A stretch of 64,000 nt of DNA from NCBI RefSeq assembly GCF_004087915.1, contig NZ_CP035108.1, positions 2,604,001-2,668,000 on the forward strand. Reading direction: 5' to 3'. A model generated the notes under the pieces. That model was not told the DNA's origin and searched no databases. It saw only the letters and a program-made list of their open reading frames with translations. The DNA comes from Geovibrio thiophilus (GTDB lineage: Bacteria > Chrysiogenota > Deferribacteres > Deferribacterales > Geovibrionaceae). The translations under genes were made by a program, and so were the position numbers. Within the stretch, counting starts at the first letter, position 1. Each line of letters opens with the position of its first letter. Positions 22,982 through 28,244 of this stretch are shown piece after piece.

Positions 22982-23791
22982 ATGATCGGAGAAAAACTTA
23001 GAAGACTTATTAAACGTAAAGGAATCAAGCAGGTTGAGGTATGCAGAGCCGTGGGGCTTTCCCCGTCCAGACTCTCCAATTATCTCAGCGGCAGCAGAGA
23101 ACCGGATCTCGAAACCCTTTCTAAAATTGCCCGCTTTCTTGAAGTTAAGCTTGATTACTTCGCCTTCGGCGACTCCATCAAGAATACCAAGGAAATAGGC
23201 GAAAGAATCAAAAAAATCAGAGAGATGAGAGGGCTTACGAAAAAAGACCTCTCCGATTCCACCGGCTATGACCTCACTTTTTTCGCCGCCCTTGAACTCG
23301 GGCACGGCGAATTTGAGAGAGAAACCATTGAGACTATCTCGCAGATACTTAAGTACGGCGCTGATGAGCTCATCGGAACCAACGAACAGAACACGGAAGC
23401 TCTCTCGGCAGTTATGGAAAATGAAGTTGTGGATTACTTCCCCGCTTCACCGGAAACCCAGTACCATCTGGACGACATAGCATCCGGCAGAACGGAGGCT
23501 CTCAAAACCCCCTTCTGGACTGTGGTTACTGACGGCAGATTCGCCCCGAAAATAAACGAAAACGAACTGGTTTTTGTTGAAAAAATCATCGGCTTTCCCG
23601 AAGACAGGGAATCAGTTCTGTTCGCTTCGGAAGGAACGCTCAGGCTTATGCGCTGTTTTGAATACCATGATTCTGTGCTTCTCGCGCCTGAATCAAAAGC
23701 CGGAGAACCCATCAGCCTCAACAAAAGTGAGGAGATGAAACCCGGAAGCCGCTGCTACAAAATCCACTGGATTGCCAAAAAACCGGACTGA
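22982..23791 (+). CDS. Double-HTH XRE regulator with degenerate S24-like domain
   Basis: A 269-residue protein with two consecutive XRE helix-turn-helix domains: residues about 3-58 (KQVEVCRAVGLSPSRLSNYL) and about 72-130 (LTKKDLSDSTGYDLTFFAAL). The C-terminal part (about 170-265) follows the S24 fold, but DGRFAPKINENELVFV has no nucleophile Ser and no catalytic Lys is visible. Two HTH domains in one chain suggest binding of extended or paired operators. It ends at its own terminator and is read in the same direction as the next, shorter relative. Confidence 0.85.
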   Translation: MIGEKLRRLIKRKGIKQVEVCRAVGLSPSRLSNYLSGSREPDLETLSKIARFLEVKLDYFAFGDSIKNTKEIGERIKKIREMRGLTKKDLSDSTGYDLTFFAALELGHGEFERETIETISQILKYGADELIGTNEQNTEALSAVMENEVVDYFPASPETQYHLDDIASGRTEALKTPFWTVVTDGRFAPKINENELVFVEKIIGFPEDRESVLFASEGTLRLMRCFEYHDSVLLAPESKAGEPISLNKSEEMKPGSRCYKIHWIAKKPD

Positions 23792-25234: not shown

Positions 25235-26350
25235 TTATTTCAGCGGTATTCCGAATCTTCTTGCCGCTTCGGTGAAATCCACATCCATTCCAGCCTGCGC
25301 CGCTTCCCTGATTGTAGTCCAATCCGCGTATTTTTTCTCCTCAAAAACAAACGACGGAAGCTTGCATCCGCTGCCGAAGTTAAGCTCCGCTATCCATCTG
25401 ACCAGAGTGGAATTTACCGTACCCGCCAGTGAGGCGGCGGTCTTTGCCGCTTTTATACCGAATGTTCTGGAGTGCTCCTTAGCAAGGGCGTATGATGCGC
25501 CTGAGCCGGTGTCGCTGGTGAGTATTTCTCCTGTTACTGCCTTTGAGATCTCTCCGTTGCAGACCTCAATCAGCTTTGCGAAATCCTCCGAACTTCCCCT
25601 GCTTTCAAGCACCTGAACCTTTTCCACGTTGGCTAACGCCACTGCGGCATCGTTCTGTATGCCGCTTAAGGATTCAGCCAGAGCCTGCGCCCTGCGCCTC
25701 GTTTCCTCTCCTCCGTCCGAATTGAACATGGCAAGGACTGTCGGAACACCGAATTTCTCCGCAACGGTGAGCCAGAAGCGAAACCCTGCCTTCTTGAACA
25801 TCCACGGCCAGTAGCATTTGGACAGAACCGGGCTGCCGTAGGGGTTTTCGTTTCTGGGCATATGCCTGTGGATTATAAACTTGTATTTTTCATCAAGTTC
25901 TGTCTTCCCTCCTCCGTCCGCCATGAAAAGACCGCCTTCCGAATCAAAAAGAAATCTGGCTGGATTCCGGTTCAGAAGCTTTTCCGCCAGCCAGTGAGCC
26001 CCCTCCTTCCTCCACACTATTTCCGTAACGGAAAAACCGTATTCCACGGCGGAAAGCATCTCCTCAAGCTCCTGAAGAAAGTTCGGCATGTCTTTGAGAT
26101 TTCTCCGCACATAATCAGCGGTCTTAGCCGCTTCCTTTGTGGAGTCTGCGGGAATTATGCTCCACTCATACGCAAGCACGCCGTGCCTTAGCTGCTCAAG
26201 TTTTGCGGAAATATGCGCATCCGCCAGCATTTCATCAAAGATCGACAGACGGAGACCGTTTTTTGACAGTATAACGTCAGGATTCGGCATAAAGCTTAAA
26301 AATGTTGAAAATTCCGCCGCTGAAGAAACGGCTTTTGTAAGATTATTCAT
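25235..26350 (-). CDS. Phage portal protein, Mu gp29-like (DUF935)
   Basis: A 371-residue protein matching the DUF935/Mu gp29 portal family: the N-terminal LRLSIFDEMLADAHISAKL, the HRHMPRNENPYGSPVLSKCYWPW core and a late VTGEILTSDTGSGASYALAKEH segment. Portals form the dodecameric gate for DNA in capsids. The C-terminal tail beyond FGIPLK is shorter than in full-length relatives. AAGGGGGAAC precedes the ATG, and the gene starts 11 bases after TerL, so the packaging order is kept. No capsid, protease or tail gene follows. Confidence 0.88.
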   Translation of the reverse strand: MNNLTKAVSSAAEFSTFLSFMPNPDVILSKNGLRLSIFDEMLADAHISAKLEQLRHGVLAYEWSIIPADSTKEAAKTADYVRRNLKDMPNFLQELEEMLSAVEYGFSVTEIVWRKEGAHWLAEKLLNRNPARFLFDSEGGLFMADGGGKTELDEKYKFIIHRHMPRNENPYGSPVLSKCYWPWMFKKAGFRFWLTVAEKFGVPTVLAMFNSDGGEETRRRAQALAESLSGIQNDAAVALANVEKVQVLESRGSSEDFAKLIEVCNGEISKAVTGEILTSDTGSGASYALAKEHSRTFGIKAAKTAASLAGTVNSTLVRWIAELNFGSGCKLPSFVFEEKKYADWTTIREAAQAGMDVDFTEAARRFGIPLK

Positions 26351-26361
26351 AATGTTCCCCC

Positions 26362-27759
26362 TTAATATCCTCTGAATATGGCGCCTGCCTGTCTGGAGGT
26401 TCCCGAATGAACCCCTTCGGGCATTGCCCTTGCTCCACCCTCACTCAGCGCCTGAGTGAGAGCGTCAACCATGTCGTCATGCCTGCCGAAGGGGAAAGCC
26501 GCAGCCTCCTCCACCAGTTCAGCGCTGAAAGCCTTGTCCTCCGGCAGATAAACATTTCCCGCCTCAAGGAGGGGCTGAACCGCATAAGCCCTCGAAATCT
26601 TTGAGCCTTTCGGCTCCACGGCTATCATTCCCTGAATCTCCTTTCTGAGAGCCGAAAGAACAGCAGAGCCGTTCGCCTTGTCCTCAACATATTTCGCCCC
26701 CGCCTGCGGCCATCGGACAGTGAGGTTTTTTACCGCTCTTACAGTTGCGGAAAAATCCATTCTGTCCCGCACCATATCGGCAAGGTATCTGCACGAGCCC
26801 TTAACAGCCCAGACCTGTCCCACAACATAGTCGGCTCCTTCGTTACCCTTGAAGCTCATGTCCCATGACTGAAACCAGCAGTCCGGATCGGCTGGAAGGG
26901 TTCGGTAATAACGCCACCATTCCCGTTTGAGCACTGTTCCCGAATCAGGCGCCGGCTCCTGCATATAGAGAGCGTTCCACACCCTTGAGCCCACGGACTG
27001 CCTTATGCGGTTCAGTTCTTCCTCCCCGTATTTCGCAGCCCAGAGAGGCTCACCATGTTTTCGGAAGGATTCGTCCGCTTCGGCGACAGCGGGGAGCTTA
27101 AGAATCCTCCATTCCCCCGGGTATTCCTTGAGGAGCCTGCCCGCAAGATCGTCCTCGTGCCATCTGGTCTGCACCAGAATTATCCGTCCGTTTTTTTCCA
27201 GCCTCGTAAACAGCGTAGAGCGGTACCAATCCCACAGCTTGTCCCTGTAAAGGGCTGAAGACGCCTGTTCGGAGTTTTTAACAGGATCGTCAATGATGAT
27301 CAGATGCCCGCCCTGACCGGTTATTGAACCTCCGGCACCCGCGGCGAGATAACGTCCGCCCTCCTCCAGCTCCCATCTTGACGCGGAGCGGGCATTCGCT
27401 CTCAGACCTTTTCCGCCGAATACATTTAAAAAGAGTCTTGACGCTGCAAGATCCCTCACCCGCCTGCCGAAACTCTCGGCAAGCTCAGCACTGTATGAAC
27501 ACGCGATAACGTTCAGCTTGGGATTCCGTCCCATGAACCATGCGGGAAAGCGTACCGAAGTAATTTCGCTTTTGCCGTGTCTGGGCGGCATCATCACCAT
27601 CAGTCTGTCCGTTTCGCCTCTTTCCACAAGCTCAAGCTCACGGGCAAGCAGCCTGTGGTGCCAATTCGGGAGGAAGTCTCTGAAGCTCAGCATGCAGTAA
27701 GAAATAAGCGACTTTTCCGCCTTCCGGCATGCAGCGGCTCTCGGATCAGTCTTCATCAT
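26362..27759 (-). CDS. Phage terminase large subunit (ATPase/nuclease)
   Basis: A 465-residue TerL. ATPase: Walker A PPRHGKSE (residues 58-65), Walker B HLIIIDDP with D157 and D158, coupling region VQTRWHEDDLAGRL. Nuclease: QSWDMSFKG with D300, VEDKANG near 358-364, and GRHDDMVDALTQAL with D428/D429/D432. Every expected catalytic residue is present and the frame is unbroken, arguing against simple decay. It packages DNA into phage-type heads. It overlaps the TerS-like gene by 14 bases. Confidence 0.94.
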   Translation of the reverse strand: MMKTDPRAAACRKAEKSLISYCMLSFRDFLPNWHHRLLARELELVERGETDRLMVMMPPRHGKSEITSVRFPAWFMGRNPKLNVIACSYSAELAESFGRRVRDLAASRLFLNVFGGKGLRANARSASRWELEEGGRYLAAGAGGSITGQGGHLIIIDDPVKNSEQASSALYRDKLWDWYRSTLFTRLEKNGRIILVQTRWHEDDLAGRLLKEYPGEWRILKLPAVAEADESFRKHGEPLWAAKYGEEELNRIRQSVGSRVWNALYMQEPAPDSGTVLKREWWRYYRTLPADPDCWFQSWDMSFKGNEGADYVVGQVWAVKGSCRYLADMVRDRMDFSATVRAVKNLTVRWPQAGAKYVEDKANGSAVLSALRKEIQGMIAVEPKGSKISRAYAVQPLLEAGNVYLPEDKAFSAELVEEAAAFPFGRHDDMVDALTQALSEGGARAMPEGVHSGTSRQAGAIFRGY

Positions 27760-28153
27760 CCTCCGTTACCCTTGCGGCGTCCTCAAAAGAGATGTCGTAC
27801 AAATCATCCAGAGCATTGTTGGTTTTGACGGTGCCCATTATTTCCTCAGGCTTTGTCAGTCCCACATCCCTGTACGCCTTCAATGTTTTGGAATGAGTTT
27901 CCAGATCCTTCATGTTCCCGCATTCATCCAGCATGCTGTCCGCCTTTTCTATCCCCTTAAGCGCAACATCCTGCACAGCCTTAAGAATCCTGATCCGTTT
28001 CCTGCGTCCGGTTTCAAGACTGTTCTCCCATTTTTCTTTTTTTGCTCTTTTTTTAATCTCAACGGAACTGCATCCGAATATCCCTGCGAGATTGTCCGGA
28101 TCTGTGTTGCCGTTTTCATATTCTTCTCTGATTTTTACCCAGTCGAACCCCAT
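27746..28153 (-). CDS. Terminase small subunit-like protein
   Basis: A 135-residue protein with an N-terminal helix-turn-helix (DPDNLAGIFGCSSVEIKKRAKKEKW) followed by a basic stretch (TGRRKRIRI) and long helices, the layout of small terminase subunits that recognise packaging sites. The family assignment rests on this layout and on its place directly before TerL with a 14-base overlap. The acidic tail DAARVTEDDED is encoded in the overlap. Confidence 0.7.
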   Translation of the reverse strand: MGFDWVKIREEYENGNTDPDNLAGIFGCSSVEIKKRAKKEKWENSLETGRRKRIRILKAVQDVALKGIEKADSMLDECGNMKDLETHSKTLKAYRDVGLTKPEEIMGTVKTNNALDDLYDISFEDAARVTEDDED

Positions 28154-28244
28154 CTCCCCACCGAAACAGTCATTTTGTTACGGACAGAAATATAACGCAT
28201 AAAGGGGAAGGCGTTGTTACGCCATGTGACTGATAAGGATTTTT

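Follow-up and report, generated by a model that had tools for sequence, protein, structure and literature searches.

A two-locus, phage-derived gene system in the family Geovibrionaceae, probably a gene transfer agent

What do a phage portal and both terminase subunits do in a bacterial chromosome when no capsid gene lies beside them? The question is raised by a 64,000-nucleotide stretch of Geovibrio thiophilus (the window; positions 2604001-2668000 of a one-contig genome of 2,997,552 bases, here G000), which carries a small terminase subunit (TerS), a large terminase subunit (TerL) and a Mu-type portal. A preliminary description had called them a stand-alone module, and had seen in them part of a dispersed gene transfer agent (GTA), a satellite borrowing heads or a domesticated DNA-translocating machine. 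Stand-alone they are not: genes for capsid, protease, neck, tail tip and lysis start 2.3 kb beyond the left end of the window. Read together, the two gene sets almost certainly form a domesticated phage-derived system, held at two loci and under selection, and that system is likely to be a GTA.

Two operons in one genome

The packaging genes follow a promoter element that is taken up below (window coordinates):

25235-26350, minus strand: portal protein, 371 amino acids, Mu gp29 type (Portal_Mu PF06074, E 1.2e-88 across the whole model)
26362-27759, minus strand: TerL, 465 amino acids (phrog_38, E 7.7e-128; Terminase_6N and 6C)
27746-28153, minus strand: TerS, 135 amino acids (phrog_1206, E 9.8e-7; no Pfam match)
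28189-28219, minus strand: promoter element TAACAA-N19-TATATT, before the TerS-TerL-portal operon

Their description as intact and catalytically equipped is borne out by the profile matches and by an alignment of TerL. All three frames are intact, and TerL has the motifs PPRHGKS and IIDDP, which we take to be its Walker A and Walker B, together with acidic residues D300, D360 and D428/D429, invariant in 11 aligned orthologues. The overlaps said to join the genes exist between TerS and TerL (14 nt), but not between TerL and the portal gene, which are separated by 11 nt. PF06074 has one match in the genome. Comparisons here and below cover 12 genomes of the family, in four genera labelled g1 to g4, with G000 in g1. 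The portals of all 12 stop at nearly the same position and, when eight of them were aligned with five phage portals, the C-terminus fell about 45 amino acids short of the phage proteins; an AlphaFold2 model of the portal was poor (mean predicted local distance difference test, pLDDT, 59) and was not used. The flanks, where checked, are host-like as described, and are common to genomes of the window's genus: upstream lie a histidine-kinase-like gene (HATPase_c slightly below the cut-off) and another large gene, and downstream a small signal-peptide-like protein, a PilZ protein, XRE regulators and tRNA-Pro.

Close phage relatives of the portal (IMG/VR contigs, 43-46% identity) carry a capsid of the Phage_cap_E family, and a search with this family gave a capsid in all 12 genomes. 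The match in G000 (2599611-2600525, minus strand) lies 3.5 kb outside the window and about 29 kb from the portal gene. A look for unlinked capsid genes of Mu-like type had been proposed; a capsid was found, but its type is Phage_cap_E (PF03864) and not Mu gpT. It falls within a second operon on the minus strand (genome 2589946-2601632, or L082:5946-17632, L082 being the 20 kb that precede the window, genome 2584001-2604000), whose nearest edge is the one 2.3 kb to the left of the window:

L082:16949-17632, minus strand: protease (phrog_976; start set by comparison)
L082:16574-16936, minus strand: decoration protein (phrog_49)
L082:15575-16561, minus strand: capsid, Phage_cap_E (PF03864)
L082:15226-15570, minus strand: neck-like
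L082:14823-15203, minus strand: terminator-like
L082:14162-14818, minus strand: g14162
L082:13776-14150, minus strand: g13776
L082:12807-13766, minus strand: g12807, tail-tip protein
L082:11124-12803, minus strand: g11124, tail-tip gene
L082:10628-11131, minus strand: g10628
L082:9907-10623, minus strand: g9907
L082:9038-9910, minus strand: g9038
L082:8025-9038, minus strand: g8025
L082:7616-8047, minus strand: M15-type lysin (phrog_894)
L082:7410-7619, minus strand: holin-like (a guess from size and place)
L082:6231-7400, minus strand: repeat fibre
L082:5946-6221, minus strand: small open reading frame (ORF)

The head, packaging and tail-side genes found comprise protease, decoration, capsid, neck, TerS, TerL, portal, tail tip and lysis. 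Replication or integration genes were not seen among the proteins scanned, which took in part of the neighbouring genes. A divergent TPR gene (L082:17794-18750; lipoprotein-like by look) fronts the structural operon in 12/12 genomes. Searches of the PDB yielded no useful match to the profiles of TerL, TerS, g12807 and g11124, and only weak capsid matches (E 0.014) to the capsid profile. Mu gpT capsid (PF10124), Phage_capsid (PF05065) and MuF (PF04233) were each tried and are absent from G000. PF05065 has no match in any of the 12 genomes, and PF10124 and PF04233 occur only in G002 and G011, at the same ordinary Mu-like prophages. These (L039, G002 C1:381500-401400; L040, G011 C11:1-19900) carry gpT capsid, MuF and tape measure, and stand apart from the two-locus system.

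Conservation, shared promoter and selection

Gene profiles, built from 2-4 genomes each, were run on the fetched loci of all 12 genomes. TerS, TerL, portal, protease, decoration, capsid, neck, terminator, g13776, g12807, g11124, g10628, g9907, g9038 and g8025 were found in 12/12, g14162 in 11/12 and the fibre in 10/12; altogether 16 of the 19 particle-gene profiles are present in at least 11 genomes. The terminator match in G004 is doubtful: 174 nt of it fall within the neck gene, 471 nt stay free ahead of g13776, and it was taken as misplaced. The packaging and structural loci lie some 13-36 kb apart in g1, g2 and g4, and on different contigs in the five g3 genomes. Gene order is kept but for one move, that of g14162. 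In g1/g2 this gene precedes g13776; the eight g3/g4 genomes have it after g12807, except for G009, which gave no match to it. Among 50 genomes of the phylum the capsid profile matched 12/12 in the family, 0/33 in other families of the order, 0/2 in the rest of the class and 1/3 further members, that one match lying in a prophage that also encodes MuF, a terminase and what by look is a sheath-like protein. The portal was found in 12/12, 1/33 (24% identity, on a 7.7-kb contig), 0/2 and 1/3 respectively, and in 1/9 genomes outside the phylum. A 6.3-kb IMG/VR contig (L048) also carries the packaging module, with a portal 85% identical, and seems to be a piece of a close relative's chromosome filed as viral.

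The descent of the system is near-vertical. Inheritance within the host clade is seen in the family-wide presence and in the TerL tree, which shares 8/8 splits with that of Lon protease (11 taxa), while the portal and capsid trees agree less well (see below).

One promoter element also fronts both operons. In G000 the two copies of TAACAA-N19-TATATT, the only ones in the 104 kb read, precede TerS and the protease gene (L082:17688, minus strand). In g3/g4 genomes TTA[AT]ACATAT precedes TerS in 8/8 and the protease gene in 7/8, with a TATAAT-like box about 17 bases beyond. Over all loci of the 12 genomes (521,820 bases) this pattern has 16 sites, 15 of them before the two operons, against 3.1 in a shuffled background (20 plain shuffles). 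The g1/g2 form is RACAW with TATATT at the same distance, and RACAW-N19-TANNNT was found at 20/24 operon starts, its background being 0.014 per 160 bases and strand (for three of these starts the position used missed the start codon, though the stretch searched still covered the promoter). Together the two patterns cover 23/24 operon starts, the exception being the protease gene of G008. The patterns were chosen from the same upstream sequences in which they were counted; the TerS-side and protease-side regions are different DNA, and it is therefore their agreement, genome after genome, that is the test. A double-HTH (helix-turn-helix) XRE protein (window 22982-23791; ratio of nonsynonymous to synonymous substitution rates, dN/dS, about 0.02) is encoded in the fetched loci of 6/12 genomes, namely the four of g1/g2, where it sits in the packaging locus, and G005 and G007, where it sits in the structural one; it is a candidate regulator of the system.

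Purifying selection on the particle genes was observed within one genus. Values of dN/dS are reported only where the synonymous rate was unsaturated. Between G000 and G002 (YN00) they are 0.06 for the portal, 0.05 for TerL and 0.18 for TerS, and neighbouring host genes give 0.02-0.27. A ratio near 1, or relatives with a complete prophage at this place, had been named as signs of a recent remnant. The packaging genes fall at 0.05-0.18, far from 1, and no complete prophage was seen at the packaging locus in the 12 family genomes. Across the structural operon (NG86) the capsid has the lowest dN/dS, 0.03, and the terminator the highest, 0.23; in no pair within the genus does an unsaturated value exceed 0.24. 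No internal stops were found in 50 compared sequences, all from the window's genus.

A phage ancestor and missing tail genes

The origin of the two operons is still visible in a viral contig, IMGVR_UViG_3300028030_000027 (L049/L133), whose portal is 46% identical to that of the window. Profiles of both operons match this contig in the order portal, protease, decoration, capsid, neck, terminator, (tape measure), g13776, g12807, g11124, g10628 and g9907 (E 5e-14 to 3e-132), so that the run from portal through protease, decoration, capsid, neck and terminator to the tail tip is the same in both. The phage differs in carrying MuF and further tail genes: one for tail completion (phrog_26) between neck and terminator, and those for a tube (phrog_807), a chaperone (phrog_1442) and a 902-amino-acid tape measure (phrog_973) between terminator and g13776. 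Its TerL belongs to another PHROG (phrog_2) and is unmatched by the family TerL profile, and TerS and TerL may therefore have another source. Queries with the capsid and with the tail-tip protein g12807 returned no matches, or distant ones only, from IMG/VR and phage records. On average, portal, capsid and protease contain slightly less carbon per residue than their phage homologues, from too few rows to count.

In the family, the free space between terminator and g13776, with g14162 counted in where it lies between them, is at most 18 nt in 10/12 genomes. G003, sister to the window's genus, has at that place a tube gene of 232 amino acids (phrog_807), 28% identical to the phage tube. A query with it at E 0.001 found no other copy in the 12 genomes, with a weak match in G010 (E 0.085), and the phage tape measure matched only the ordinary Mu-like prophage contigs of G002 and G011. 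MuF and tape measure were found only in other prophages and the tube only in G003, and the head and tail genes, which in a Mu-like prophage would form a complete set at one locus, are spread over two. G003 groups with g1 in all four trees, and the tube would therefore have been lost at least twice, if the ancestor had one.

Other candidates for the missing parts were rejected. Contractile-type tubes (PF04985) occur in 3/12 genomes, each beside a second Phage_cap_E copy, and are on that account assigned to other prophages. These second copies, which also adjoin a tape measure, lie in G002 (C7), G003 (C1, ~1.151-1.160 Mb) and G011 (C3), and the three above-cut-off matches to the tape-measure family PF10145 are the same prophages; the remaining PF10145 matches are below the cut-off and were taken, unchecked, as chemoreceptor-like coils. 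The idea of g14162 as a shortened tape measure was dropped too: its sole match to a named PHROG is a weak one to a tail fibre, and in seven genomes it comes after g12807.

With tape measure and chaperone gone, and the tube absent in 11/12 genomes, the particle should be short-tailed. That it has no tail tube at all we rate as about even to likely. A fuller scenario, in which the GTA arose from a long-tailed phage by deletion of tape measure, chaperone and tube, with neck and tail tip kept and the tip complex seated directly on the neck, is put forward tentatively and at slightly under an even chance. If true, the particle plan is one not met in the literature searched, and a stepwise loss of the tail could be traced genus by genus.

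A probable gene transfer agent, its rivals and its known counterparts

As a GTA, the system may work as follows. The shared promoter would fire and both operons would be expressed together, one supplying TerS, TerL and portal, the other protease, decoration protein, cap_E capsid, neck and tail-tip proteins, with lysin and holin where these are recognisable. Heads would assemble on the portal and be filled by TerL with stretches of host DNA; the lysin would open the cell, and tail-tip and fibre proteins would bind recipients, to which the DNA is passed. Head and tail-tip genes would derive from the long-tailed phage whose gene order the viral contig still displays.

Several observations weigh against this reading. 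The portal and Lon trees share 4/9 splits and the capsid and Lon trees 6/9; most of these conflicts are weakly supported on at least one side, with one inside the window's genus moderate on both (capsid 84/80 against Lon 86/89). Lysin and holin profiles match in 4/12 genomes only, from two of the four genera. TerL of G007, omitted from the TerL alignment and tree, is split across two frames. In G005 (a one-contig genome) a 466-amino-acid transposase-like ORF (by look; L087:10704-12104) lies inside the structural operon, between g9907 and g9038, and the particle of that strain may for this reason be broken. The loss of tube and tape measure could itself be a sign of decay, or of a particle by which no DNA is delivered. 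Moreover, a TerS without HTH, as appears to be the case for gp1 of RcGTA (Rhodobacter capsulatus), has been proposed as a mark of the GTA type in the excerpted text of PMC6854486, as a proposal and not an agreed definition. Here, an AlphaFold2 model (mean pLDDT 68; 78-88 over the first 40 residues; no significant Foldseek match) predicts an HTH-like N-terminal part of three helices followed by long helices, and packaging might accordingly start at preferred sites.

To these can be added the reading that this is the same GTA but builds an ordinary long tail, from a tube and a tape measure encoded at a third locus that has diverged. GTA genes tend to occupy several loci, according to PMC11841831, and G003 retains an intact tube gene. 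Yet at E 0.001 the G003 tube query has no match in the other 11 genomes, although the tubes of G003 and the phage are still recognisable at 28% identity, and matches to the phage tape measure come only from ordinary prophages; we regard a third locus as unlikely. A PBSX-like or tailocin-like particle, kept because it harms competitors and with DNA transfer incidental or absent, would agree with the retained tail-tip set, fibre and lysis genes and with the fast evolution of tail-tip g11124 (dN/dS ~0.2; 17-22% identity outside the genus), as in receptor-binding parts. Killing does not need terminase and portal, whose genes nevertheless rank with the most constrained ones (dN/dS ~0.05; capsid 0.03), and the part that was lost, the tube, is the one on which tailocins rely; such a function is improbable.

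Decay is more improbable still. An ancient prophage remnant on its way out, kept by chance in the family, would fit the loss of chaperone and tape measure, the near-loss of the tube and the transposase-like ORF in one genome. Yet the system is present in all 12 genomes, spanning four genera; dN/dS within the genus is low; and both loci retain the promoter element. A prophage in decay would not keep operons at two places under a single promoter. Hardly credible at all is a head-lending or head-stealing element, be it a satellite or a phage-inducible island. The packaging module alone does resemble one, but G000 also has a capsid operon, preceded by the same promoter element and distributed over genomes in the same way, and no integrase was noticed beside either locus among the genes scanned. 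It is this capsid operon of the genome's own, under the same promoter element, that makes both the head-borrowing satellite and the DNA-translocating machine of the preliminary description unlikely. Of its three options, the dispersed GTA is the one favoured by the evidence as a whole.

Very few GTAs are known outside Alphaproteobacteria, according to excerpts of PMC12946183, and those of PMC11841831 call their computational discovery hard, on account of their phage-remnant look and split loci. What picked out the present system was its presence throughout the family, together with low dN/dS, the promoter element common to both operons and the collinear phage. Judged by title or opening lines, none of the literature matches listed reports a GTA in Deferribacterota. 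The bacteria concerned are anaerobic nitrate- and metal-reducers, among which the system would, if the GTA reading is true, provide a route of gene exchange. Two questions become testable, namely how a phage is tamed stepwise and whether DNA delivery by a GTA is possible without a tail tube.

Lastly, the system can be set beside known GTAs. RcGTA and BaGTA are likewise phage-derived and inherited with the host, with slow-evolving TerL and capsid, and the RcGTA genes are dispersed (PMC9662315, in excerpt). The RcGTA capsid is called HK97-like, whereas Phage_capsid PF05065 finds nothing in the 12 genomes here. For BhGTA/VSH-1 of Brachyspira, the same excerpts describe a main structural cluster with a lysin and a single conserved terL elsewhere that is thought to act with it. 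The likeness is one of description, and the Brachyspira homologues are said to lack synteny, whereas gene order here is kept with one rearrangement. FpGTA of Faecalibacterium prausnitzii, also outside Alphaproteobacteria, has two operons, for head and packaging and for structure and lysis, in the excerpted account of PMC12946183. It belongs to another phylum and is likened by description only, and its terminase and portal sit with the capsid, whereas here they are split off. The best phage match of the window's TerL is to a Faecalibacterium phage (48.7%), which may mean nothing. The FpGTA particle is thought, in the same account, to be short-tailed and podovirus-like, as we propose for that of the Geovibrionaceae.

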